Shown: piece by piece, positions 1,226 through 26,933 of the stretch
How the letters are laid out: each line of letters starts with the position of its first letter
Numbering within the stretch: position 1 is the stretch's first letter
Source of the DNA: a virus
DNA: 35,425 bases
Virus record (IMG/VR): IMGVR_UViG_3300021962_000318
Span: 1-35,425 of that record
Reading direction: 5' to 3' (one strand)
Notes under the pieces: model-generated
Database searches by the model: none
Told to the model about the DNA's origin: nothing
What the model saw: the letters and a program-made list of their open reading frames with translations, nothing else
Translations under genes and position numbers: made by a program

Positions 1226-1555
1226 TTACATTTTTGGCAACTTTCGTCTAGCCAAACCTTTTAATATTGGGTTTTTCTTTTTGCTGACACCAGGTTCTCT
1301 TTGTGTTGCGGGTAATCTGGAATCTCCGGAACCCGCAATGCCAGCTACACCCATCATGCCATCTTCTTTGATATTTTCTTTAGCCGCTTTGTAGGAATCA
1401 CCCTTTGCTTTTGCGGCTCCACCACCACCTTCTTCAGCAGATTTAACATAGTTTTCTTTCGCCTTATCATCCAAATGCTTTTTTTGGCGAACTATTTCCT
1501 GTTTATCTCTTTTTTTTGTGGCTTCAGAACCTAAAAAATCTTTAAAATTTAACAT
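1226..1555 (-). CDS. Small basic protein with capsid-targeting-like N-terminus
   Basis: I start this at the ATG at 1555, giving MLNFKDFLGSEATKKRD. That ATG overlaps the stop of the upstream gene as TAATG and has AAGGAA at a normal distance, whereas an ATG four codons earlier lies almost on top of that ribosome site. The product is about 109 residues, Lys- and Gly-rich and low in hydrophobic residues, with a glycine run (GGGGAA) mid-protein. It looks disordered. The first ten residues match the pattern M-x-x-F-x-x-[FY]-[LI] found on several neighbours and on T4 internal head proteins (MKTYQEFIAE). A packaged internal protein is inferred from that and from position. I recognise no enzymatic domain. 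Confidence 0.7.
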   Translation of the reverse strand: MLNFKDFLGSEATKKRDKQEIVRQKKHLDDKAKENYVKSAEEGGGGAAKAKGDSYKAAKENIKEDGMMGVAGIAGSGDSRLPATQREPGVSKKKNPILKGLARRKLPKM

Positions 1556-1965
1556 TAACAATTCCATTTCCTTAAAGATTTATTAATACGTGAATCTGGA
1601 TCTTTAGCGGTTTTGGCGGATGTTAAACGTTTTTTCATACCAGACATTCTAGCACAAAACGATTTTCTTCTCTTTGCTGCTTTAGAATCAGGATCTAATT
1701 TTGATGGTTTTGTTGTGACAGCAGTTTTTAATTTTGAACCGGGATGCTCTCTACGATAAGAATCAACACCCTTTTGATTCAAACCACCAGACTCTCTTTT
1801 GCCTTCTTTGCGTTGCCATGCTGCAGTTTCATCCAGTTCAACTTCTTCTTTCACTTTTTCGCAGCTGCCAGGAGAATAAGGTTCTTTTCCTGGAACTGGT
1901 TTATAACCTGTCCAACAACGACCTTTTTTCTTTTCTTCTTCGATATAATTTTTGAACGATTTCAT
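1555..1965 (-). CDS. Conserved phage protein, DUF6321-like, capsid-targeting-like N-terminus
   Basis: The ATG at 1965 is chosen because it overlaps the upstream stop by ATGA and is preceded by GGAGGT; the protein is about 136 residues. It begins MKSFKNYIEEEKK, close to the T4 capsid-targeting sequence, followed by a Cys-containing stretch (RCWTGYKPVPGKEPYSPGSC). The C-terminal half (ELDETAAWQRKEGKRESGG, then a very basic segment with RRKSFCARMSGMKKR and DPDSRINKSLRKWNC) matches my memory of the phage family DUF6321, whose function is unknown. The high positive charge suits DNA contact inside the head, which is inference. The family call is from memory and was not searched. Confidence 0.8.
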   Translation of the reverse strand: MKSFKNYIEEEKKKGRCWTGYKPVPGKEPYSPGSCEKVKEEVELDETAAWQRKEGKRESGGLNQKGVDSYRREHPGSKLKTAVTTKPSKLDPDSKAAKRRKSFCARMSGMKKRLTSAKTAKDPDSRINKSLRKWNC

Positions 1966-2348
1966 ATTTTTAATAATACCTCCGCAACATCTTTGTTTAT
2001 TGTAATATCTGATGAGTGTATATTTTTTCCTCTGATTCCATACACACAACTAGGCATAATATTCAAATATTCCAAAAAAGTTTTAAGAATATCATAATCT
2101 CGTTCATCTATTTTATAGAACAATATTCTGGCCGTAGATTCTGTTCCGAAAACATTGTTCAATAGAATGATGTGGTTTAATATCAAGCGTTCCTTTAGTG
2201 ATTTTGCCACTTTATATCTTCTAAACAACCTTTTGAGATATTTGGTTCGCTTGATATCCCCCTCAAACTCTGACATGATGCATTGCGGTGAATTATAACA
2301 CTTCATCGCATACATTATGAAATTTTCTTCATTCAAATCATCAAACAT
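1962..2348 (-). CDS. Conserved T4-like phage protein of unknown function (DUF7207-like)
   Basis: This 128-residue protein (MFDDLNEENFIMYAMKCYNS at its start) resembles a family common in T4-like marine phages, with a core of the type KRLFRRY...ERLILNHIILLNNVFG...RILFYKID...LKTFLEYLNIMP. It looks all-helical and soluble, with no signal or membrane segment. It overlaps the next gene by ATGA and lies within the late, structural block, so a role in virion assembly is possible. I know of no demonstrated function, and the family name is given from memory. Confidence 0.7.
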   Translation of the reverse strand: MFDDLNEENFIMYAMKCYNSPQCIMSEFEGDIKRTKYLKRLFRRYKVAKSLKERLILNHIILLNNVFGTESTARILFYKIDERDYDILKTFLEYLNIMPSCVYGIRGKNIHSSDITINKDVAEVLLKI

Positions 2349-2378
2349 ATCATGTTAATACAAAATAACTGTTATCGA

Positions 2379-2747
2379 TTATGGATTTGCTGTGTTTGCA
2401 ATAGCTTCTTCATCTCCATCACCAGTTACTGTACTTAATGTGACCAAAGTTTCATATTGGGTGCGGCCGGCGCGGCCGCCTTGGCCAGTTGTTTTTAAAA
2501 CCCAACCTGTATGTGCAACAGATTTATTTTGTTGGTTGTTGGCAGATTCGGCCGAATCAATAGCAAACAAACCAATTGTTGTGCGTGAGGTATAAACATT
2601 AGCTGTTGTATTTGCATACAATAATGCTACGTTTGCTGCTGTAGGTGCGGCTGCAGCGGCTTTTACGTCAGCTGCATTTACTATTGTTGAGTTAACTGCC
2701 CAGTATGGTGCGTTAGCTGCGTTGTCGTTGTTTCCCCAAGATGACAT
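2379..2747 (-). CDS. Probable virion surface/decoration-type protein
   Basis: This 122-residue protein is rich in Ala, Asn and Thr and has no Cys. It begins MSSWGNNDNAANAPYWAVNS and contains a Gly-rich stretch near residues 86-96 (KTTGQGGRAGR) followed by TQYETLVTLSTVTGDG. The composition and beta-type pattern fit a small structural protein, and similar 'WGNNDNAANAP' proteins occur in T4-like phage structural regions. It has its own strong ribosome site (AAGGAG), and a degenerate late-promoter octamer lies about 30 bases upstream. Head or neck decoration is inference. Its codons are noticeably more GC-rich than those of its neighbours, including a GGCGCGGCCGCC run near 2468. Confidence 0.65.
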   Translation of the reverse strand: MSSWGNNDNAANAPYWAVNSTIVNAADVKAAAAAPTAANVALLYANTTANVYTSRTTIGLFAIDSAESANNQQNKSVAHTGWVLKTTGQGGRAGRTQYETLVTLSTVTGDGDEEAIANTANP

Positions 2748-2779
2748 TGTTATTCTCCTTTTAACCGAGGGTTATATTG

Positions 2780-2787
2780 TATTTATT
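2780..2787 (-). promoter_or_regulatory. Degenerate late octamer AATAAATA before the decoration-type gene
   Basis: The minus strand reads AATAAATA, one base off the T4 late consensus, about 33 bases upstream of the start at 2747. A separate late start for an abundant structural protein would make sense, but in AT-rich DNA the match is weak. Confidence 0.3.
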
Positions 2788-3704
2788 TAATTGTTTTTTT
2801 GTGAACCAAAAATTGCTTGCTTTTTCGTTTTCATCATAGGATCAATTTCGATGGTATCTCTAGGAACACCAGTCATAGTTTTTCCACCACTCAAAACTGC
2901 TGCGGCTTGAGGTGATTCCTTAGTTTCCGCATTTACACCTTTCTTTTTATAGATAGATTTAATAATTCTTGCAGATTTCGACATTTCCTTTGTGTTTTTC
3001 TTTTTGGCAGGAATTGTGTCCTCTGGATTATTAGCTCCATCAAAAGGCATTTGTGTTGCTGCGGTCGATCCATGATAGGTGGCTTCTTCAACTTTTTTCG
3101 CATCATTATCAAACTGTTTTCTTGTCGCTTTCATAATTCCAGAAAACCGTTTGTTTGCTTTTTTAACATCACCAGATTTATCTGCGGCAGAAGCTTCTTT
3201 ACCGGCTTTTTCTTTGTATCGATCCAAAATTTTTGTTAACTCGTTCAGTTCCATTCCAGATTTTTCGAGTTCTTCTCTGATTGAGGTTACATATTTGTAA
3301 TCTTTCATTGTCAGAACACCCTTGTTTCGGATCTGAATTAATTTTTCCACAACTTTGTGTAAATCCATGTCGGTCTTTGCATCCTCACGAGCATACTCCA
3401 ACATACGAATCAATAAAGGAATATCAAAAGCCACAACATCTCTTTTATCTACAGATTCTTGCACAGGATCATTAACATGTGCTGTTGCCCAAACCTGAAA
3501 AGCTTTTGTTTTTGAGTGAGCAACTTTCAAATCTTTCGAAGCATATTGTGGATTTATTCCTCTAGATTTTAAGTATCTATTTAACAAGGCAGATTCAGAT
3601 ATGTTGGCTTTAGTGGACCAAGGATCATTTGGATTAGTACCAAATGTTGGTTTTTCTTCACCACATTTCAGAACGTCTTTTATTATTCTGGTTTTCTTGT
3701 TCAT
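2787..3704 (-). CDS. Putative internal-head/scaffold-type protein, charged and helical
   Basis: This 305-residue protein has a compact central helical module around residues 92-145 (IPLLIRMLEYAREDAKTDMD, then VVEKLIQIRNKGVLTMKDY). I recall that pattern from structural-region proteins of T4-like marine phages. The rest is Lys-, Ala- and Glu-rich and probably disordered, with two repeats of an [R/K]IIK motif (TRIIKDVLKCG at the N-terminus, ARIIKSIYKKKG near residue 245). It lacks the capsid-targeting-like N-terminus of several neighbours. It is followed closely by a second protein of the same style. No catalytic motif is visible, so the role is inferred from context. Confidence 0.65.
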   Translation of the reverse strand: MNKKTRIIKDVLKCGEEKPTFGTNPNDPWSTKANISESALLNRYLKSRGINPQYASKDLKVAHSKTKAFQVWATAHVNDPVQESVDKRDVVAFDIPLLIRMLEYAREDAKTDMDLHKVVEKLIQIRNKGVLTMKDYKYVTSIREELEKSGMELNELTKILDRYKEKAGKEASAADKSGDVKKANKRFSGIMKATRKQFDNDAKKVEEATYHGSTAATQMPFDGANNPEDTIPAKKKNTKEMSKSARIIKSIYKKKGVNAETKESPQAAAVLSGGKTMTGVPRDTIEIDPMMKTKKQAIFGSQKNN

Positions 3705-3713
3705 TTTACTGCC

Positions 3714-5036
3714 TTATTTGGAAGTATCGTTTTTTCCAGATACGTCTTTTTTGATCTTTTGCATCGCCTGGTATGCCATATGTTTAACACGGCTCATAGG
3801 CGTATGTTTTGCTCCAGATTTATCTGTTGTCACAGCATTTGAAGATGTGTTGTATGGTGGTGCAAATGGAACATTGTCGGTTTCTGGCCTTTTTGATTCA
3901 TTTACCTTTTTATCAGTATCTTGTTCTGGTTTATCTTTTTGTTTTGAACCGCCGTAACGTGATCCCTGTTTTACACCAGATCCACCCGAAGGTTGTGGTC
4001 CACGTTTTGCTTTAACATCCTTCAACATATCATCCCAACCTTCTTCAACCTGTTCGACTTCTTCTTTAGTTAAGCGATCAACTGCTTTGCTAATACCAGC
4101 ATGCCGTTTGATAGCAGCGTTTTGGAACCTCTTAGAGAGGTGTGCATTAGCAATTTTCATCTTTTCTGACTTTGCTCTTTTTGCAGCAATCTCAAAGTCC
4201 TTTGAAAGACTTCTAGCAGCTGATGCGTCCTTTGTAGCACTTTTAATATAAGATCCATATGTTTTCTTGTCAAGCTCATCAATTTGTTCAACTTCTTCTT
4301 TGGTTGGTTGTGGTTTAGTTGGTTTGCTAGGTTTTCTAGCTGCATATGTTCCCTCTGGAGCAGGTTTACCGCGAAGTTTTCTTGCCCATGCTTGCTGGCT
4401 TCGATTTTCAATACCTTCTTCTAGTTCAGCTTCTTCTTTGACTTTCTTTTGGCCACGAAGAATTGCAAAATCTTGACCGTCAATCTTGTTGTTTTTATTT
4501 TTGTCAATCTTGTGTTGTTTACCTTTGAGTTCTTCACTCACATGATTTCCACCACAAACACAGGGTTCTTCCATACATTCTGGGCAAATATCAGTTTCAA
4601 CTTCTTCTTTAGCATAGTAAGCGGCAAGAGCCATTTGTTTTCGTTTCTCTTTTGATTTTCCTTCAAATCTAGGATCATCAGAATGTACAAAATCGTGTAT
4701 GTAATCACCTGCTGATGCATCTTTGGATAAAATCTCCGAAATCATTTGGTCATAGATTGAATGTGTATTGTTGACTTCTTTGAATTGTCTGAGTGTGGCT
4801 TTTGGTTTGGTGATTTCTGTGGATTCAGATTTTAGTTTTACCTTTGTGCTTTTTCCATCAGAACCAGGTCCAACATCATCTTTTTGTTTTGTTGGTTTTC
4901 TTCCAGAAATAACATCCTTTGTTCTGACTTCAGGATCAATTGCTTCAACAACTTCGGTGTTTTGTTTTTTTACAGAATTTTCCAAAACCGATTTTATGGA
5001 ATCTGCAACAACGTCTTTTTTGTTAAGGTTGATCAT
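3714..5036 (-). CDS. Multi-module internal virion/scaffold-like protein with EF-hand-like loop and Cys cluster
   Basis: This 440-residue hydrophilic protein is built from short modules joined by linkers. Near residues 94-143 is a module of the type IYDQMISEIL...YIHDFVHSDDPRFEGKS...MALAAYYAKE, which I recall from other T4-like phages. Residues 151-161 form a CPEC...CVC cluster that may bind zinc. Residues 178-189 (DKNKNNKIDGQD) match an EF-hand or dockerin calcium loop. Acidic motifs recur at about 201-208 (EEAELEEG), 247-255 (EEVEQIDEL) and 325-333 (EEVEQVEEG). Two of them end in [LV]-E-E-G, close to the [LI]-x-E|[GA] cleavage rule of the T4 prohead protease gp21. The protein could be a processed core polyprotein; that is inference. 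Confidence 0.7.
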   Translation of the reverse strand: MINLNKKDVVADSIKSVLENSVKKQNTEVVEAIDPEVRTKDVISGRKPTKQKDDVGPGSDGKSTKVKLKSESTEITKPKATLRQFKEVNNTHSIYDQMISEILSKDASAGDYIHDFVHSDDPRFEGKSKEKRKQMALAAYYAKEEVETDICPECMEEPCVCGGNHVSEELKGKQHKIDKNKNNKIDGQDFAILRGQKKVKEEAELEEGIENRSQQAWARKLRGKPAPEGTYAARKPSKPTKPQPTKEEVEQIDELDKKTYGSYIKSATKDASAARSLSKDFEIAAKRAKSEKMKIANAHLSKRFQNAAIKRHAGISKAVDRLTKEEVEQVEEGWDDMLKDVKAKRGPQPSGGSGVKQGSRYGGSKQKDKPEQDTDKKVNESKRPETDNVPFAPPYNTSSNAVTTDKSGAKHTPMSRVKHMAYQAMQKIKKDVSGKNDTSK

Positions 5037-6859
5037 TTTTTTACTGCCTTTTTTCTTTTTATTGTGTTATAGGTATAACCTAATTTGTCTTTGGGGTTCT
5101 CTATTGGTTCTTTATTATCCGATCCACTCAATGTACCTCCAAAACCCGATTCTTGGTCATTTTGGAATCCATTATATTCACCAATCAATTTTCTAAAATT
5201 ACTAAAATTCTTTTCTTCTCTGTAAGTGACATCGCCTAATCCAGACATAGGGTATACTGTTCCCTGCTGGCGAGTATCAAATTCAGGACCGACTCCTGCC
5301 ACATTTCTAATTCTTTGATTAACTGTGGGTGAATCGGTGTATCTGTTCTTTTTATTTTTTACTTTTTCTTTGTCTTGCCTGAAGTTGCTTTCTTTTGGTT
5401 CTGGGTAGACTTTGACCGACCCTTTTTCTTCGTTGTATGTTCTAAAGGTGTAACTTCCTCGGCGTTTTGGGGCGTTCCACTTGATGTTGTCACTGTTATT
5501 GTCTCCTGCACGGTTGTCGGCTGGGATGTCTCCAGGACTATCTGCTTTTGGACCACTTCCTCTTTTGAGTTCTGGTTCGTCAGGTTTTCTTCTGCTTTCT
5601 TTGAGCTTCTGAACAAATTTAAAATTTTCTGTAACATAATTTTCTTCCTCAATAAAAGAACGATTGATAATAGTATTTAGCTTACCGTGATTTTCTAACC
5701 AAAAATAAGCTTCTTCATTCAAAATCTTAATGTCAATAAAGTCATTAATTTTAAGGTATATATCTGAAATGTCCTCTTCAATTTCTTCCAATAAACCACT
5801 ATTGTTTAGATTGATAAAATGTTCGAATTTGTTTTGGTATACTTTTTTGCTTTCCTGTGATTGTTTCCACTTTTTCTGTCTTGTAGACTCTGTAACCATT
5901 TTTACCAGTTTTTCGTTGCGTTCTTTACTTGTTTCATTGGAAGTTTCAACAAAAACCATTAGAGTGTCATATCCCAATTCTTCAAGTTCCTCTTTAATCC
6001 AGAAAATTTCTGTTTGTTTATCTGCTGGTCCATTGATAATTAAAGGTTTTCGACTTCTGATAGATTCTTTACGCAAATCATTACTTTTTTCTGATAATTT
6101 TTGTTTATCTGATAGATATTCAAAAGCTTGTACTAGGTTAATTTCTGTCATTTTTTGTTCTGGAATGGCTTCACGTAAAATTACATCTTTACCAGAACCA
6201 GGACCGCCAGTGACAAACACTGCTTTGAACATTCCACGAATAACATTTTCATTTATTCCCATTCCTCGGCGAACATCACGAAACAATTCTTTGGCGTGTG
6301 TGTCTGGAACATGACTCGGAACACCCTGTCTAAAAGAAGTGAAATCATTATTTTTTGCGTGTTCTCTCATTTTTGATGCTGACATACCCTCAGCACCTTC
6401 TGCATCCGGATCACGTTGTCCGGCAGATTTAACTTCTATCTTTTTGAAGTTGAATAGTGATCCTTGAGCGGTTCCATTGTATTGTTTCAGTTTTTGTTCA
6501 TACTCTTTAACTCTGTCGGATCCGGCCACCATAATCAAATGATCATGTCCTTGCTGAAACAATTTGGCTGCATGTTGCAAAAAAGTTGGATGTTCTTTAC
6601 TAGAAGTTTCAATATTTGTTTCTGGAAAGAATCGTTTGGTGTGTTTTAATTTTGCTTTTGGATTTAGTGGATTTTTTTTAGTATCAACCGAATGTGAAAT
6701 TATAACTTTGTGGTCTGCACCATAATCGTTCGCTATTTCATGTACTCTATTTACAAGTTTTTCGTGACCTATCGTAGGCGGATTCATACGGCCAAAAGCC
6801 ATAACCACTGGTCTTTCGGTTTTTGATTCGTCCTCTAATCTCTGTAAAAATGACTTCAT
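5033..6859 (-). CDS. Bifunctional nucleotidylyltransferase (HxGH family) / P-loop kinase-like protein
   Basis: This is a 608-residue protein. After a capsid-targeting-like start (MKSFLQRLEDE), residues 18-165 form a class I nucleotidylyltransferase domain with GRMNPPTIGH at 23-32 and the downstream MSASKMR signature at 159-165. Both are as in NMN and other adenylyl/cytidylyltransferases. Residues 213-340 form a P-loop domain (GGPGSGKD at 218-225). The order NTase then P-loop recalls NadR, the NMN adenylyltransferase/ribosylnicotinamide kinase, but the substrate cannot be read from sequence. The last ~170 residues are polar and disordered-looking, with many Pro, Arg and Asp. The stop overlaps the next start by ATGA. 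It lies in the late block with other capsid-targeted candidates. Confidence 0.8.
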   Translation of the reverse strand: MKSFLQRLEDESKTERPVVMAFGRMNPPTIGHEKLVNRVHEIANDYGADHKVIISHSVDTKKNPLNPKAKLKHTKRFFPETNIETSSKEHPTFLQHAAKLFQQGHDHLIMVAGSDRVKEYEQKLKQYNGTAQGSLFNFKKIEVKSAGQRDPDAEGAEGMSASKMREHAKNNDFTSFRQGVPSHVPDTHAKELFRDVRRGMGINENVIRGMFKAVFVTGGPGSGKDVILREAIPEQKMTEINLVQAFEYLSDKQKLSEKSNDLRKESIRSRKPLIINGPADKQTEIFWIKEELEELGYDTLMVFVETSNETSKERNEKLVKMVTESTRQKKWKQSQESKKVYQNKFEHFINLNNSGLLEEIEEDISDIYLKINDFIDIKILNEEAYFWLENHGKLNTIINRSFIEEENYVTENFKFVQKLKESRRKPDEPELKRGSGPKADSPGDIPADNRAGDNNSDNIKWNAPKRRGSYTFRTYNEEKGSVKVYPEPKESNFRQDKEKVKNKKNRYTDSPTVNQRIRNVAGVGPEFDTRQQGTVYPMSGLGDVTYREEKNFSNFRKLIGEYNGFQNDQESGFGGTLSGSDNKEPIENPKDKLGYTYNTIKRKKAVKK

Positions 6860-7831
6860 TTAATCTTTATGTCCTATTGTTTTTTTGAATGAGAACAGGT
6901 GTTCATCATTATCTAAATCTACAGTGCTTTTATTTAATCCTTTTTTACCGTCTGGATGAAAAGCAACTGTTCTTGCAAATTTGTTTCCTCTTTGTTTTTC
7001 ACGAATTCTCCACATTCCTTTTCCACTAACTCTAGGAAGACCATGGCCAGTTTCGTCTTTTTTACCAACACTGTATGTTCCATATCCACCAACCTGTAAC
7101 ACATGCACATGGTGGTCATTCAAATATGCTTCAGCCGGATTTAAATCTGGATGTTTAATTTCTATGGTTTTTGCTCGGCCCGAACTTGTTGTTTCTGCTT
7201 TTTCTGGATCTGGATAGTTTTCATTCATATGATCCAATATTCCAGATTTTTCAATTTGTTTTGCATATAAAGGACGTTTTTCTCTGGCCTTGTCTCCTAT
7301 GTGCCAACCTTTACCTTTTTTCCAATGTATTGTTAATTGTCCCATAGCAGCTGTCACACCGTCTTTTGTTTCACCGTTCAATAAATTACCATTAACTGTT
7401 CCGGGGTGAAAAACCCCTTTCTTTTTATTTTCTATTGCAAAGTCGGTTCCTGCTGTTGAACCTGCACCAGAAAGGTGTGAAGGCATAATATTATGTTGTT
7501 TCATTCTTTCGACAAACCTGGATTCATAGTCATGTCCTTTATTTTTTGGTGCTTCTCCAGGTTTGAAAAATTTTGAAATTGGAATGATATGTTCATTTCC
7601 ATTTTGATCTTCCGCGTGTGCGTGGAATTTTCCTTTTATATTTTCAACTTTTTTTAACTTAACGTGTGAACCAGCAGGCAAATCTTCATGTTCACTGGAT
7701 AAAGTATGTGTAAAATCATTCGAACCAAGATATGGATTGATATATTTTTCAACATGTCTTGCACCTTCTGTGCCAGAAGATGTTAGTTTACCGCGACCTT
7801 CAATAATTAAGTATCCTTTGAAACCAATCAT
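6860..7831 (-). CDS. Putative PD-(D/E)XK-fold nuclease with capsid-targeting-like N-terminus
   Basis: This 323-residue protein starts MIGFKGYLIIEGRGK, in which I-I-E|G fits the prohead-protease rule. Residues 101-170 carry the spacing of a PD-(D/E)XK nuclease core: a helix with Glu (YESRFVERM), then GTD with Asp130, then GETK with Glu154 and Lys156, and Gln165 in the following helix. The C-terminal part is basic and ends in a KKTIGHKD tail. It overlaps the ligase-like gene upstream by ATGA and abuts the nucleotidylyltransferase gene downstream. A nuclease role is inferred from motif spacing alone; a fold prediction is needed to settle it. Confidence 0.6.
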   Translation of the reverse strand: MIGFKGYLIIEGRGKLTSSGTEGARHVEKYINPYLGSNDFTHTLSSEHEDLPAGSHVKLKKVENIKGKFHAHAEDQNGNEHIIPISKFFKPGEAPKNKGHDYESRFVERMKQHNIMPSHLSGAGSTAGTDFAIENKKKGVFHPGTVNGNLLNGETKDGVTAAMGQLTIHWKKGKGWHIGDKAREKRPLYAKQIEKSGILDHMNENYPDPEKAETTSSGRAKTIEIKHPDLNPAEAYLNDHHVHVLQVGGYGTYSVGKKDETGHGLPRVSGKGMWRIREKQRGNKFARTVAFHPDGKKGLNKSTVDLDNDEHLFSFKKTIGHKD

Positions 7832-9033
7832 TTGAAATTCCTCATTCCAGCAAAATTTCTTGCAGAAAATTTAGCACGATCAACAAGTTTCTCACTATCT
7901 CCATCGTGGTGAAAAACATAACCTTCAGGGTCTGCATCTTCACCAGCATGTTTGTGTTGAAATTCTTGGTGTTGGTTTAAAACATCAATTAAAAGATTTT
8001 TTGCATTTTGCAAATGACCGTGCATTTTAAATAAGTTGTTATAATGCTTTTTGTTTTTTTCTATTTTACTTAATTCGGAAGCAAGTGCATCTTGTTTTGT
8101 CTTTTTGTTTTTTTCTACTTTAAGTTTTTCAATTTTTTTATTTGTTTGATCTTCCAACCAGGTTTTGAAATTTACATGGTTCGGTGTTTCACCTGTTCTT
8201 ACTGTGTGGTTCATATAAGACTCCAATGAACCACCAACACCTTGGTGTGCAGATGTTCCAGCATACATGTCATCGCCGTGAGTATTGTGTATTGCTTCTG
8301 CGGCTGAGATGTGTCTATTGAATTCTTTTTGCTGTTTTGGACTAAAATGAACTTTGCTTGTATCCATTCTAGGATCAACACCATAAACATCAGGATGATT
8401 TTGAAATTTTTCGTGATTTACTTCATGTGAAGCATTTAAATTCGATGCATCATCACCGTGATAAGAAAGGTGTGTAACAACACCTATTTTAGCTTTCTTC
8501 ACTTTGTTTGCTTCATCGCCATGAGCGGTATAAGTTAGTCCGGATGGATTAGGACGGAATGATTGTCCTCCATTTTTTTCTGCAACTTTATCTTCTCTAC
8601 TTGTACCAAACATCATGTCACCTTGATAAACACCTTCTTTTGGTGCAATTTTTGGTAAATGATTCAATGCGTCTTTTAATTTACTGACTAATCCTGGAGC
8701 GTGCCCATGATTTCTTTCAATATCTTGCGGAGTGTAATTTACTTTTGGTGTTTTATTAAAAGCTGATTTTGATGCAACGAAAAATTTACCATTTTTTGGA
8801 TGATAACCATAAACAATTGCAGGAGAACCATCATATTTTGTTGTGAGTTCCGATGTTTTTTTGCCTTTTGTGATATGATCTGCTGCAGCCCTTAAAACTT
8901 TGAATGATCTGGAAGCACCAGATTCACCTTGCTGTAAAGCACGATCTTCTACATGCGTTAGATGTTTTATTTGGCGGCTAGCGCCTTCTTCGGTGTCAAC
9001 TTGTTCTTTTAGGAAACTCTTAAAATTTAACAT
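7828..9033 (-). CDS. ATP-dependent ligase/capping-type nucleotidyltransferase-like protein
   Basis: The ATG at 9033 is chosen because it has AGAGGT 5 bases upstream and gives MLNFKSFLKEQ, matching its neighbours; a start 8 codons earlier lacks this. The 401-residue product has KYDGSP (candidate nucleophile Lys66), VYQGDMMFG as a motif III-like segment, EGYV at 370-373 as motif IV and an AKFS segment with Lys388 as motif V. These are the covalent nucleotidyltransferase motifs of DNA/RNA ligases and capping enzymes. There is no visible OB-fold domain after motif V, so it may be a minimal catalytic domain. It is the first gene after the late promoter at 9075-9082. Confidence 0.75.
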   Translation of the reverse strand: MLNFKSFLKEQVDTEEGASRQIKHLTHVEDRALQQGESGASRSFKVLRAAADHITKGKKTSELTTKYDGSPAIVYGYHPKNGKFFVASKSAFNKTPKVNYTPQDIERNHGHAPGLVSKLKDALNHLPKIAPKEGVYQGDMMFGTSREDKVAEKNGGQSFRPNPSGLTYTAHGDEANKVKKAKIGVVTHLSYHGDDASNLNASHEVNHEKFQNHPDVYGVDPRMDTSKVHFSPKQQKEFNRHISAAEAIHNTHGDDMYAGTSAHQGVGGSLESYMNHTVRTGETPNHVNFKTWLEDQTNKKIEKLKVEKNKKTKQDALASELSKIEKNKKHYNNLFKMHGHLQNAKNLLIDVLNQHQEFQHKHAGEDADPEGYVFHHDGDSEKLVDRAKFSARNFAGMRNFK

Positions 9034-9074: not shown

Positions 9075-9082
9075 TATTTATA
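9075..9082 (-). promoter_or_regulatory. T4-type late promoter octamer TATAAATA
   Basis: The minus strand reads TATAAATA here, the exact T4 late consensus recognised by the phage sigma gp55. It lies about 42 bases upstream of the ligase-like gene start at 9033, in the only real gap between the glycosyltransferase block and the capsid/lysis block. It would drive the leftward late genes. Confidence 0.7.
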
Positions 9083-9144: not shown

Positions 9145-9819
9145 TCAATCAATTTTCCAATCGCCGGTTGAAGCCACCTGACCTCTACAATACACCCTAT
9201 CGAATTCTACCACTTTTGATTTATCAAGAACTGCGAAAAATGCATGTTCCAAATCAATTTTATCTAACATTTGAAACACCTTTTCTAAAGTTTCATTATG
9301 ATAATTTAGAAGTGATGTACAGAAAGAATACAGTCTAGTATCAAAAATGTGTGTGGCGTTATAAATAGGACTTTTCATCCAAGTGTCAACTCTTTTCTTA
9401 AAAACATATTTACCTGTTAAGCCATCATATTCATTAATATCAAATCCATCGTCCAGTTGTATTCTTCCTGTTATTTTAAATATTCTATCCACTCCATCCA
9501 ACAACTTGGGATTTGATTGTAAATAATCCATAACAAAATGTGTCATCACACACTCACTTTGACTTTTTAATCCAGCAACACTCAGTTGCATCAGAAAATC
9601 AATTTTTGATAAGTTTATAAACAAATCAACCTTTGACACAATTTCACTGTATGTTTCATCCAATGGTTTTGTCGATATATCAGACAAAATGATAAAAGAA
9701 TTTGGTGATTTGTTTCTAATGGATTGAATTGTTTCAAGTGTTTGTTTTAAACGTTCTTCTGGTGTGAATATACCAATTGTTGGTATTAAAGATGACGTTA
9801 CAACAAAAATTGTTTTCAT
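9145..9819 (-). CDS. Putative glycosyltransferase-like protein of unknown specificity
   Basis: This is a 224-residue soluble protein. The N-terminus (MKTIFVVTSSLIPTIGIF) and the segment around residues 115-130 (RIFKITGRIQLDDGFD) have the alternating strand/helix look and acidic Asp-Asp of a sugar-nucleotide transferase. I cannot place it in a family. It is the last gene of a five-gene minus-strand run whose other members include two glycosyltransferase-like proteins, a YibB-like protein and a methyltransferase. Its start overlaps the methyltransferase stop by ATGA. A role in making or changing a surface glycan is inferred from neighbours. Confidence 0.6.
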   Translation of the reverse strand: MKTIFVVTSSLIPTIGIFTPEERLKQTLETIQSIRNKSPNSFIILSDISTKPLDETYSEIVSKVDLFINLSKIDFLMQLSVAGLKSQSECVMTHFVMDYLQSNPKLLDGVDRIFKITGRIQLDDGFDINEYDGLTGKYVFKKRVDTWMKSPIYNATHIFDTRLYSFCTSLLNYHNETLEKVFQMLDKIDLEHAFFAVLDKSKVVEFDRVYCRGQVASTGDWKID

Positions 9820-10379
9820 TTATACCAATACCACACATCACATTCTGTTGTGAGAATTTTATCTGTTTTTGTTGCTGCGAATTCTTTTACTGCTTTATTT
9901 ACAGCAGGTATTGTTTCATAGTCATGTCCAGAAAATAATCCACCCACTTTTACTTTTGAATAGTAGTTGTGACAATCTTTTGTTAATTGTTCGTATGTGT
10001 GTAAACCATCAATAAAAATAAAGTCCATTTCACCATCGTTAAAATTGGAGAAAACGTTGTCTGAAAAATCTCGGATTAAAATAAATCTATCTCCATATAC
10101 AGACATTTCTTTGGTGACTCTTTGGAAAAATTCTTCTCTGTCGTTTAATACGTTTCCGTTCCAATCAGTATAAGGAACATAAGGATCTATAGAATAAAGT
10201 GTTAAATTTGGATTTGTGTCTAGTAAAAATTTAGAAGTGTGAGCTTCTGAACAACCAATTTCCAAACCAAGTTTCATGTCTTTTGTTAATTCACCCAGAC
10301 CGTAACCAGAACACTTAAATGGTCCTCTTTGCATACCAAACGCCTGTGTTTCTGTATTAAAAATAAGCACATCACTCAT
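9816..10379 (-). CDS. Class I SAM-dependent methyltransferase
   Basis: This is a 187-residue Rossmann-fold protein. Motif I is LGLEIGCSEAHTS (about residues 36-48), followed by an acidic strand end (LYSIDPY) and the post-motif DFIFIDGLHTYEQLTKDCHN, typical of the Methyltransf_24 type found beside glycosyltransferases. Residues near the C-terminus (GGLFSGHDYETIPAVNKAV) also fit that family, in which metal-binding Asp and His recur. It probably methylates a sugar or a glycan precursor, given that it sits between glycosyltransferase-like genes; the substrate is not readable. Confidence 0.8.
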   Translation of the reverse strand: MSDVLIFNTETQAFGMQRGPFKCSGYGLGELTKDMKLGLEIGCSEAHTSKFLLDTNPNLTLYSIDPYVPYTDWNGNVLNDREEFFQRVTKEMSVYGDRFILIRDFSDNVFSNFNDGEMDFIFIDGLHTYEQLTKDCHNYYSKVKVGGLFSGHDYETIPAVNKAVKEFAATKTDKILTTECDVWYWYK

Positions 10380-10380
10380 A

Positions 10381-11187
10381 TTATACCTCTCTATTAAAAT
10401 CTGTAAAAATTACAAAAGGATCATTGCCAAATTGATGATCTGGAATTTTATGTAGTTCAAATAATTCTGGTCTTTTAATTGTTGACATTAACATTAATGT
10501 TTGATCGTCATCAATTAAGTTTTTGTCCATTAATTCAAACAGACTTTGTTCCATGAGTGATCTGAATTCCAACCAAGGCTCTTTACCACCAACAATCTTT
10601 GCTCCTAAAATATAAACATCATTTGATGCAATGATATCTGTAATAGATTTTCCATCATAATCTTTATAATTAAATAGATGCATCTTATTATCATTAAAAT
10701 CGTATGACCATTTTTTGCTTTTTGGTATCTTATCTTCGGTCCTACAATAACCAAAATCCAACCAAGATATCAAATTACTATTCACTAAATTATTTTTTAT
10801 AGTAAATTCAACAAACATCGATTTTAAAAAATTTACAACAACATAGTGTGGATTCCAATATTCAGGATTAGTTCTTTGTGTTGGAAGTATAAGTTTTTTA
10901 AATGAATCTTCTTTTTGTATTTTATGTATTTTTTGTATCAATTCTGAACATTGATTAAAAATGTCGAAAGAAACCCATTTTGTTGGTCTATCTTCCCTGA
11001 GTGGTATTAACTTTTCAATTATATCTGGAGATGAAAATACAATTATTTCATTCTCCAATTTGGCCATATAAGAAAACCGTTCAATATATGTTTCTGTTGT
11101 TCTCTGTAAATAGTGTGGAAGGCCTTTATCTGGAGTCCAATCACCTCGGCCGATGTCAAAAAAAGCAGTAACGATATTGATCATCAT
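10381..11187 (-). CDS. YibB/HtrL-family protein, putative glycosyltransferase
   Basis: This is a 268-residue protein. The opening VTAFFDIGRGDW and the internal LISWLDFGYCR (about residue 145) match the HtrL/YibB family, whose members sit in lipopolysaccharide gene clusters and have a glycosyltransferase A-like fold. The Asp in WLDFGYCR is the likely metal or sugar-nucleotide ligand. The start codon is within ATGATGA, overlapping the stop of the upstream gene. Action on a surface glycan is inferred from family and neighbours. Confidence 0.75.
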   Translation of the reverse strand: MMINIVTAFFDIGRGDWTPDKGLPHYLQRTTETYIERFSYMAKLENEIIVFSSPDIIEKLIPLREDRPTKWVSFDIFNQCSELIQKIHKIQKEDSFKKLILPTQRTNPEYWNPHYVVVNFLKSMFVEFTIKNNLVNSNLISWLDFGYCRTEDKIPKSKKWSYDFNDNKMHLFNYKDYDGKSITDIIASNDVYILGAKIVGGKEPWLEFRSLMEQSLFELMDKNLIDDDQTLMLMSTIKRPELFELHKIPDHQFGNDPFVIFTDFNREV

Positions 11188-12038
11188 GTGGTCCTGTATA
11201 TGAAGTGTTCCTCTTCATTTTCTTGTTTAAATTTTTCCATAACAAATTTTTTCCACTCCGGAACACGATCATACTGATGAACTATTGGGAAAATATGACG
11301 GTCATGTGTCATAACCAGACCATCTTTAAAGACCGGTTCATAACACAAAAGTTTTGGTCTAAAGCTGTCAATTTTTGTGGGATCTGCAACAGTACCCGCT
11401 TCACAGGCCCAACTGACGGTAATATTTAACACATCTTTAAACGGTTGTGTACCAAGTAAAACATTAAACACAGCTTGGTCACAAATAGGAATTGGTCTGT
11501 TGATTGCATTTGTAAAAATATTAAAAACCATATCTTTCACGTATTCGGAAGTTCCACCAAAAGTTCCCACGTTATAGATTACATTATTTTTGAATAGTTC
11601 ATAAACATAAGGACCATAAGATTGTTTCAAGTTATCATTTCCCCAAGGTTCATCTTTATATCTTAATCCTTCTGAGGCAACAACTAATCTATATGCTGAT
11701 CCAGGAATATCCAATTCTAAACGTTCGAATGGATCAGATTGAAAGAAAACATCTTTCACATCCGTTGTTACTACGTATTTGTATTTGGCCCAATTATTTT
11801 TTAAATACTCATATATTGAAAGAAATCTTAATACATGAATAGGGACCCCCTGAATAGAAGCCATAGGAACAACAATAACACCTTGATTGGAAATCCACCG
11901 TAGAGTTTCATCGGATGTGTTGCCTGTTACCAAAACAACATCATTGTCTCCACAAATTTCTTTTGCTGACAACACCCAAGGTTTTAACTGATTAATTTCG
12001 TAATTAGTAAAACCACCAATAATTAAATTTTTCTCCAT
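11184..12038 (-). CDS. Nucleotide-diphospho-sugar transferase-like protein
   Basis: This is a 284-residue protein. The segment YKYVVTTDVKDVFFQSDPFE (about residues 86-105) contains the D-x-x-D-x-x-F arrangement seen in GT-A glycosyltransferases that act on sugar nucleotides. The C-terminal MTHDRHIFPIVHQYDRVPEW region resembles the end of such enzymes, where His helps bind the metal. There is no membrane segment, so it is cytoplasmic. It overlaps genes on both sides by a few bases, which suggests that the block is translated as a unit. Donor and acceptor are unknown. Confidence 0.7.
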   Translation of the reverse strand: MEKNLIIGGFTNYEINQLKPWVLSAKEICGDNDVVLVTGNTSDETLRWISNQGVIVVPMASIQGVPIHVLRFLSIYEYLKNNWAKYKYVVTTDVKDVFFQSDPFERLELDIPGSAYRLVVASEGLRYKDEPWGNDNLKQSYGPYVYELFKNNVIYNVGTFGGTSEYVKDMVFNIFTNAINRPIPICDQAVFNVLLGTQPFKDVLNITVSWACEAGTVADPTKIDSFRPKLLCYEPVFKDGLVMTHDRHIFPIVHQYDRVPEWKKFVMEKFKQENEEEHFIYRTT

Positions 12039-12733
12039 GGGAATTCTCCATTATATTTTTGTTTCATCATTTCATTGCCAACCAAAAAGAATTCGGAGTT
12101 AACTGAACCAGTATTTCCTCCAACCTTGTAGTTTACGGTATATTCTCCCGTACAATCAAACTTTTTAAAATGTTGTGATAATACAGATAAAAACACCCTA
12201 TCTTGACCCCAGCCGCCGTGCCAAACTTGTGCCAATTTTATCGCAACCGATGTTTTAAGGCAATAACAATTAGTATCTATGTGATTTGTTCCTTGGAAAG
12301 TTTGCCATTTACCCAAAGATTCACAATCATCATTGCAGATATATTCACCATCTTTATCACAAACTTTACGGAGAGAATAGGACCAATCCAGGTCGTTTTT
12401 TTCTATTGTTTCTATACAAGACTGTACATGATTGTGATCAAACCAACAATCTTGATCCAAGTAAAGAACATAGTCAGTGTCGATTAGGTGTGTGAAAGCG
12501 GCATACACACGATGGCCATAAAAACCGTTTGCACCAACATTAAGTGGTAGAAAACATCTTTCCATGTTTTTTCTGTTCAAAAAATTATCAGTAATCAATC
12601 TTGTCTTTGAATGTGCTTGAACACCATCAGCAACAACATAACATTTTGTTTCATATGTTTGTTTTAAAACACTATCAATAGCATCATTTAACTCCGGAGA
12701 ACCCGTAGTTGGTATAATCACAGTTGCACTCAT
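12023..12733 (-). CDS. Glycosyltransferase family 2 protein
   Basis: This is a 236-residue protein with a clear GT2 pattern. The N-terminal ATVIIPTTGSPELNDAIDSV is followed by KQTYETKCYVVADG (about 24-37) and by YVLYLDQDCWFDHNHV (about 91-106), with the D-x-D metal motif. A later WQTFQGTNHIDTNCY and a WGQDRVF segment (acid for catalysis) also fit. It is the first gene of the glycan block in the direction of transcription. A glycan or glycosylated-protein product, of phage or host surface, is inferred. Confidence 0.8.
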   Translation of the reverse strand: MSATVIIPTTGSPELNDAIDSVLKQTYETKCYVVADGVQAHSKTRLITDNFLNRKNMERCFLPLNVGANGFYGHRVYAAFTHLIDTDYVLYLDQDCWFDHNHVQSCIETIEKNDLDWSYSLRKVCDKDGEYICNDDCESLGKWQTFQGTNHIDTNCYCLKTSVAIKLAQVWHGGWGQDRVFLSVLSQHFKKFDCTGEYTVNYKVGGNTGSVNSEFFLVGNEMMKQKYNGEFPWRKI

Positions 12734-26696: not shown

Positions 26697-26933
26697 TTAT
26701 TTTTGCATTTCTGCTGTGATATGGTCTTCCAAATCACCTAGTGTGTTCATTTTATCCAAAGCTTCATCTGGAATAGAGACATCAAATTCTTCTTCCAGAA
26801 AAACCAAATATTCCATAAAACTCATACTATCAAAGCCTAATCCTTCATTTCTAAAGATAGTTTCTCTTGTCATGTCTGAACTGTCAATTTCAAATTTATC
26901 TTTCAGTACATTTTTCATTCTCTCTAAAACCAT
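26697..26933 (-). CDS. Acyl carrier protein
   Basis: This is a 78-residue acidic, all-helical protein of normal ACP length. The phosphopantetheine site is GFDSMSF with Ser36, at the start of helix II, followed by the acidic recognition helix (EYLVFLEEEFDVSIPDEALD). AGGAG lies before the ATG. It sits between two tRNA genes, with no fatty-acid or polyketide enzyme in the window. In a phage it must depend on host holo-ACP synthase to be active. It could supply or divert acyl groups for lipid, lipid A or other acylation; which one cannot be read. The ACP call itself is secure. Confidence 0.88.
   Translation of the reverse strand: MVLERMKNVLKDKFEIDSSDMTRETIFRNEGLGFDSMSFMEYLVFLEEEFDVSIPDEALDKMNTLGDLEDHITAEMQK

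Follow-up and report, generated by a model that had tools for sequence, protein, structure and literature searches.

Proteins with T4-type capsid-targeting N-termini, probably head cargo, encoded in one operon of a freshwater T4-like phage

Why should several unrelated proteins encoded side by side in a phage genome begin with nearly the same ten residues? The question is raised by IMG/VR record IMGVR_UViG_3300021962_000318, a 35.4-kb fragment (positions 1 to 35,425; the whole of it is called the window below) from a freshwater, Kyanoviridae-type T4-like phage. Nine closely spaced or overlapping genes occupy its minus strand from 9033 down to 1226, and five of them do start as described in the original prediction: MLNFKDFLGSE (1555), MKSFKNYIEEE (1965), MKSFLQRLEDE (6859), MIGFKGYLIIEG (7831) and MLNFKSFLKEQ (9033). 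These starts had been likened to the capsid-targeting sequence of T4, and the proteins were proposed to include enzymes packaged with the DNA. Our analysis indicates that the locus is probably a late operon of head cargo, delivered by means of a T4-type capsid-targeting tag. Targeting into the head is well supported because the positions mapped in T4 IPIII are conserved, relatives encode a gp21-type protease, a late promoter precedes the operon and tagged homologues are found in virion proteomes; on packaging, this last line of evidence comes from other phages.

The T4 proteins IPI, IPII, IPIII and Alt likewise begin with a short peptide in which positions 4, 7, 8 and 10 are fixed (Mullaney and Black 1996; PMC9026906). 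In IPIII, positions 4 and 7 serve targeting and positions 8 and 10 serve cutting; Asp at position 10 stops cutting but not targeting (PMC9026906). The T4-type pattern (aromatic residue at 4 and 7, L/I/V at 8, E at 10-11) was given the tight form ^M.{1,2}[FYLW]..[FYWH][LIVMF].{1,2}E. The five tags are:

9004..9033, minus strand: tag MLNFKSFLKE of the DUF6267 protein; 155/162 homologues keep the pattern
7799..7831, minus strand: tag MIGFKGYLIIE of a 323-amino-acid protein; 22/37 homologues tight
6827..6859, minus strand: looser tag MKSFLQRLEDE of the nucleotidylyltransferase; M1, K2 and F4 invariant, 2/172 homologues tight in this clade
1936..1965, minus strand: tag MKSFKNYIEE of the DUF6321 protein; 63/201 homologues tight
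1523..1555, minus strand: tag MLNFKDFLGSE of a 109-amino-acid protein; 32/39 homologues tight

The likeness to T4 is thus tight in four of the five, and the nucleotidylyltransferase fits loosely, with R at 7 and D at 10. The cleavage motif [LI]-x-E is exact at 1965, 7831 and 9033; the protein at 1555 has LGSE and that at 6859 has LEDE. The four other operon members (5036-3714, 3704-2787, 2747-2379 and 2348-1962) have no tag. Across the window, 4 of the 49 called genes match the tight pattern and all four lie within 1226-9033, and at internal methionines in related loci it is found 29 times in 17,069 (0.17%). In a 174.5-kb relative (G001), 2 of 806 internal methionines match; the gene-start matches with a homologue here are again the DUF6267, 323-amino-acid and DUF6321 proteins, and the others are mostly TTG starts that look spurious. 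The N-terminal likeness is therefore real and non-random. A search of about 260 related loci for the same motif on unrelated proteins, as had been suggested, gave 193 matches among 4045 called genes preceded by a ribosome-binding site. Since these matches are redundant by homology, clusters are the useful count: 145 distinct tagged proteins fall into 17 sequence-unrelated groups, some singletons probably being chance matches.

The tag behaves as a removable module, most clearly in DUF6267, the best-tagged member of the operon. In a set unfiltered for the pattern, F4 (62/70), F/Y7 (62/70), L/I8 (64/70) and E10 (63/70) are the least variable positions of the tag, and positions 5, 6 and 9 vary; in the DUF6267 alignment F4 and E10 are at least 90% conserved. 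The tag is followed by an indel-containing linker that runs up to the conserved domain, which starts near residue 23. In keeping with this, the structural model (predicted local distance difference test, pLDDT, 89) has low confidence for the first 20 residues and high confidence for the domain. At least two changes are needed for tag gain or loss on a tree of 40 DUF6267 proteins; therefore, the tag comes and goes while the domain stays. The DUF6267 of P-HM2-type cyanophages, unlike that of the window, is untagged (0/41), and S-SM1-type cyanophage nucleotidylyltransferases have the full tag in 43 of 43 (MKKFSAFLxEA). DUF6321 is itself a C-terminal module found on many otherwise unrelated phage proteins; the capsid tag stands ahead of it in about one third of the homologues, and those without a tight tag have DUF6321 after a different N-terminus. 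A tagged HAD-hydrolase-like protein (L171:7460-8086, weak family match) may be another packaged enzyme.

For three cyanophages whose virion lists have been published, all annotated genes were translated. The virion sets were taken from Table 3 of PMC10665884 for S-CREM2, from PMC9146016 for S-SZBM1 and from the labels in record MK867354 for S-SCSM1 (48 genes, versus 45 stated in PMC9602691). When the three genomes are pooled, 8 of 13 tagged proteins belong to the virion sets versus 122 of 706 untagged ones (odds ratio 7.7, P = 5e-4); this signal comes mostly from S-CREM2, and S-SZBM1 alone shows no link between tag and virion. In S-CREM2, the tagged S-adenosylmethionine (SAM) hydrolase/lyase gp6, kinase gp14, gp13, gp136 and cytidylyltransferase gp154 are all in the virion (PMC10665884). 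The tagged nucleotidylyltransferase is present in the virions of all four matched cyanophages, S-SM1, S-SZBM1, S-CREM2 and S-SCSM1 (PMC3037559, PMC9146016, PMC10665884, PMC9602691). Homologues that lack the tag and are conserved elsewhere, which the original prediction had named as a finding that would speak against it, do occur, yet they are the very ones unreported in virions: the S-PM2 nucleotidylyltransferase, which was undetected in S-PM2 virions (PMC3037559), and the DUF6267 proteins S-SZBM1_141 and S-CREM2 gp87, which are not on the virion lists, single absences being weak evidence.

Two further observations concern these phages. S-SZBM1_191 and S-SCSM1_30 form a small family (about 105 amino acids, MKSFKSFLSESVNISGDFNGNLY) with a near-perfect tag that is on neither virion list. 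In S-CREM2 (record OR473000, 7704-13331; L005), the virion-detected Cas9-like gp12 is untagged, the adjoining gp13 and gp14 are tagged, and gp15 begins with MNFSEFNESLQ. A possible carrier of Cas9 into the head is the small gp13. In the passages of PMC10665884 consulted we found no remark on the S-CREM2 tags, and no paper linking such tags to cyanophage virion enzymes was found in a search that left most subscription-journal papers uncovered. In the same literature, 'cyanophage' with 'capsid targeting' matched a T4 review alone, and DUF6267 was mentioned in none.

A gp21-type protease (PF03420, over the cut-off) is encoded in 4/4 relatives tested; the window fragment is without that region. 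As to whether tagged proteins meet this protease, the bodies of tagged DUF6267 proteins contain 54 [LIVFM]xE sites versus 246 expected from shuffles, the xD, xK and xQ/N counterparts not being depleted, whereas untagged DUF6267 homologues contain 118 versus 118.5 expected. That every tagged protein avoids protease sites was rejected as a general rule, since the nucleotidylyltransferase shows the opposite.

The late promoter that the original prediction placed ahead of the set was recovered, on the minus strand:

9075..9082, minus strand: TATAAATA, a late promoter of T4 type ahead of the operon; position conserved before DUF6267

Count alone does not set the octamer apart in the window, which has 4 copies where 3.1 are expected. 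Therefore, conservation of its position was examined instead. Of 95 relatives, 73 have it ahead of DUF6267, in most cases 48-53 nucleotides before the ATG (expected 0.006 per locus); it precedes the other tested genes in 0/22, 1/100, 0/23, 0/65 and 0/67. Since it is conserved before DUF6267 and almost absent before the other tested genes, the operon appears, on sequence grounds, to be transcribed from this single late promoter. In G001 the octamer also stands ahead of genes adjoining the protease gene.

The nine genes of the operon are:

7828..9033, minus strand: DUF6267 protein, tagged, 401 amino acids (PF19782, E = 1.8e-93)
6860..7831, minus strand: protein of unknown fold, tagged, 323 amino acids, with the motif GTDF...NGETK...GQ (homologue alignment)
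5033..6859, minus strand: nucleotidylyltransferase with P-loop domain and long tail, 608 amino acids (phrog_3041, phrog_395)
3714..5036, minus strand: untagged basic protein of no family; 0/106 homologues fit the tight pattern
2787..3704, minus strand: untagged basic operon protein; C-terminal part matches phrog_26930
2379..2747, minus strand: small untagged gene, by synteny probably in the place of a cyanophage virion protein called S-layer/structural (phrog_26159, weak)
1962..2348, minus strand: phrog_407 protein, untagged; same place in cyanophages (T4-GC198)
1555..1965, minus strand: DUF6321 protein, tagged, basic, isoelectric point 9.9 (PF19846, E = 3.7e-19)
1226..1555, minus strand: small basic protein, tagged, 109 amino acids, isoelectric point 9.9; 32/39 homologues fit the tight pattern

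A similar block is present in cyanophages, in the order gp43-uvsX-gp41-DUF6267-nucleotidylyltransferase-...-phrog_407-...-gp61-nrdA, and portions of it in Pelagibacter and Methylophilales phages. The phage collection searched contained no relatives of 6860-7831 or 3714-5036. The untagged proteins of 3714-5036 and 2787-3704 have conserved N-termini of their own (MINLxKxD... and MSKAxxLKSIVKK), and S-SCSM1 gene 92, in a place similar to theirs, is labelled a virion protein. Glycosyltransferase- and methyltransferase-like genes at 9145-12733 separate the replication genes from the operon, at a place that is compact in cyanophages. Elsewhere in the window, a gene at 26697-26933 reads like an acyl carrier protein (GLGFDSMSFMEY), and a single weak PADLOC match was disregarded.

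The nucleotidylyltransferase/P-loop identity was borne out: the protein (cytidylyltransferase/NMNAT) has the GxxNPxxxGH and SxSxxR motifs (GRMNPPTIGH at 23, SASKMR at 160), a P-loop GGPGSGKD at 218 and a match to phrog_3041 (E = 6e-68), and in its homologue L167 there is a P-loop domain of the kinase type (Zeta_toxin/AAA_33). Proteins of the phrog_455 type have a C-terminal half that was considered as a P-loop domain; it proved to be nucleotidylyltransferase. DUF6267 has the KxDG and later motifs of the covalent nucleotidyltransferase (RNA/DNA ligase) superfamily, namely KYDG (66), EGYV (370) and KLVDR (382), with K66, D68, E370, G371, K382 and R386 invariant. RNA, tRNA and DNA ligases were among the top fold matches of its model, all at E > 0.05, so that 'ligase-like' holds as a putative assignment from invariant motifs with weak fold matches. 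Neither DUF6267 nor the nucleotidylyltransferase gave a useful match in PDB sequence searches, DUF6267 having only coiled-coil-like chance matches. The 323-amino-acid protein conserves the D...ExK-like motif GTDF...NGETK, a short motif and hence a weak test; its model (pLDDT 78, motif region poorly modelled) had no PDB match at E <= 0.001 and no restriction-endonuclease-like fold among the top matches. The PD-(D/E)XK fold proposed for 6860-7831 is thus unsupported, and what stands is the motif spacing. Several relatives encode DUF6267 and the nucleotidylyltransferase fused as one protein, in one case tagged (L235), which argues for a shared pathway. A role of the cargo in nucleic-acid end repair or in nucleotide or nicotinamide adenine dinucleotide (NAD) upkeep against early defence is the best guess, though less likely than not; T4 IPI and IPIII provide a precedent for anti-defence roles (PMC9391042).

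Several results weigh against delivery of the tagged proteins in the head. The loss of sites in DUF6267 is mainly that of one large clade, a second tagged clade being weak (14 versus 22). The nucleotidylyltransferase body is enriched in [LI]xE (509 versus 271 expected), as is that of cyanophages in protease-type sites; therefore, this protein could be cut further, be protected by its fold or not be exposed. Residue 11 of DUF6267 is mostly Q, E or D, versus the Ala that follows Glu in the T4 gp22 site. Structure search confirmed neither the ligase nor the nuclease fold. The virion evidence concerns cyanophage homologues rather than this phage, and two tagged small proteins of S-SZBM1 and one of S-SCSM1 are outside the virion sets.

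The peptide could alternatively dock proteins on the prohead core for assembly only, as scaffold or core parts that are digested or kept in the head, none being injected. T4 offers a parallel in the core proteins gp22, gp67 and gp68, which are targeted and mostly digested (PMC9026906), and the richness of the nucleotidylyltransferase in [LI]xE and the virion labels of several untagged operon neighbours in S-SCSM1 agree with it. We nevertheless regard it as unlikely, since a scaffold would not be expected to keep invariant motifs of catalytic type (KYDG, GRxNPPTxGH, P-loop), protease sites are lost from tagged DUF6267 and the tagged set of S-CREM2 includes a SAM lyase-family enzyme and a kinase-like protein. 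Somewhat less likely again is that virion detection reflects contamination by abundant late cytoplasmic proteins, the tag serving another interaction in the cell. Contaminants in CsCl-purified virions are indeed raised by the source authors (PMC9602691, PMC10665884), but detection tracks the tag and does not extend to cytoplasmic phage enzymes in general, different studies, on four phages in all, give similar findings and untagged homologues are not on the virion lists. As for common descent or translation-start preferences without any targeting role, many genes of these genomes start with K/S/F-rich, A/T-rich sequence, and a leader may be shared within an operon; such an origin is very improbable, however, given that the pattern is as scarce at internal methionines as stated above and rare at other gene starts, that positions 4, 7, 8 and 10 are fixed while 5, 6 and 9 vary, and that proteins unrelated to one another carry the tag, which goes along with detection in virions.

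If the operon does encode head cargo, the N-terminal peptide of about 10 residues would dock each tagged protein on the prohead core, and the gp21-type protease would presumably cut after the tag Glu at 10 or 11, leaving the mature protein in the head. At infection, the nucleotidylyltransferase/P-loop protein, the ligase-like DUF6267 protein, the possible nuclease and the small basic proteins would be ejected into the host together with the DNA. Their action may precede transcription of the phage genes, with nucleic-acid ends or nucleotide pools as the likeliest targets, and would protect against first-line defence.

The principle would be that of the T4 internal proteins, with which the system shares basic cargo, a gp21-type protease gene (seen in relatives) and predicted late expression; cargo and lineage are new. 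Unlike them, the present proteins are partly enzyme-like and are encoded in a single operon behind one conserved late promoter; the lineage is a distant T4-like one. The cyanophage families T4-GC190 (cytidylyltransferase, also called NMNAT) and T4-GC71 (DUF6267) are shared with the present operon, down to gene order between gp41 and gp61/nrdA (PMC3037559), and T4-GC190 is in the virions of several cyanophages, its presence being left unexplained in earlier papers (PMC3037559). The virion SAM hydrolase/lyase, APH/ChoK-like kinase and cytidylyltransferase of S-CREM2 (PMC10665884) are similar in that all three are tagged; S-CREM2 differs in its enzyme set and in its untagged virion Cas9.

We tentatively propose that T4-like phages of marine and freshwater bacteria have a general, swappable label by which enzymes of many kinds (nucleotidylyltransferases, SAM lyases, ligase-like and kinase-like proteins) reach the head and are delivered as a first-strike kit; in the present lineage this kit would be a dedicated late operon whose products repair nucleic-acid ends or NAD and nucleotides. 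Time and again, enzymes in cyanophage virion proteomes could not be distinguished from contamination, and for these the tag offers a reason and a rule. It gives DUF6267 and DUF6321, families of unknown function, a cellular place, would let injected proteins be listed from sequence in many uncultured T4-like phages and could lead to early counter-defence or take-over functions.

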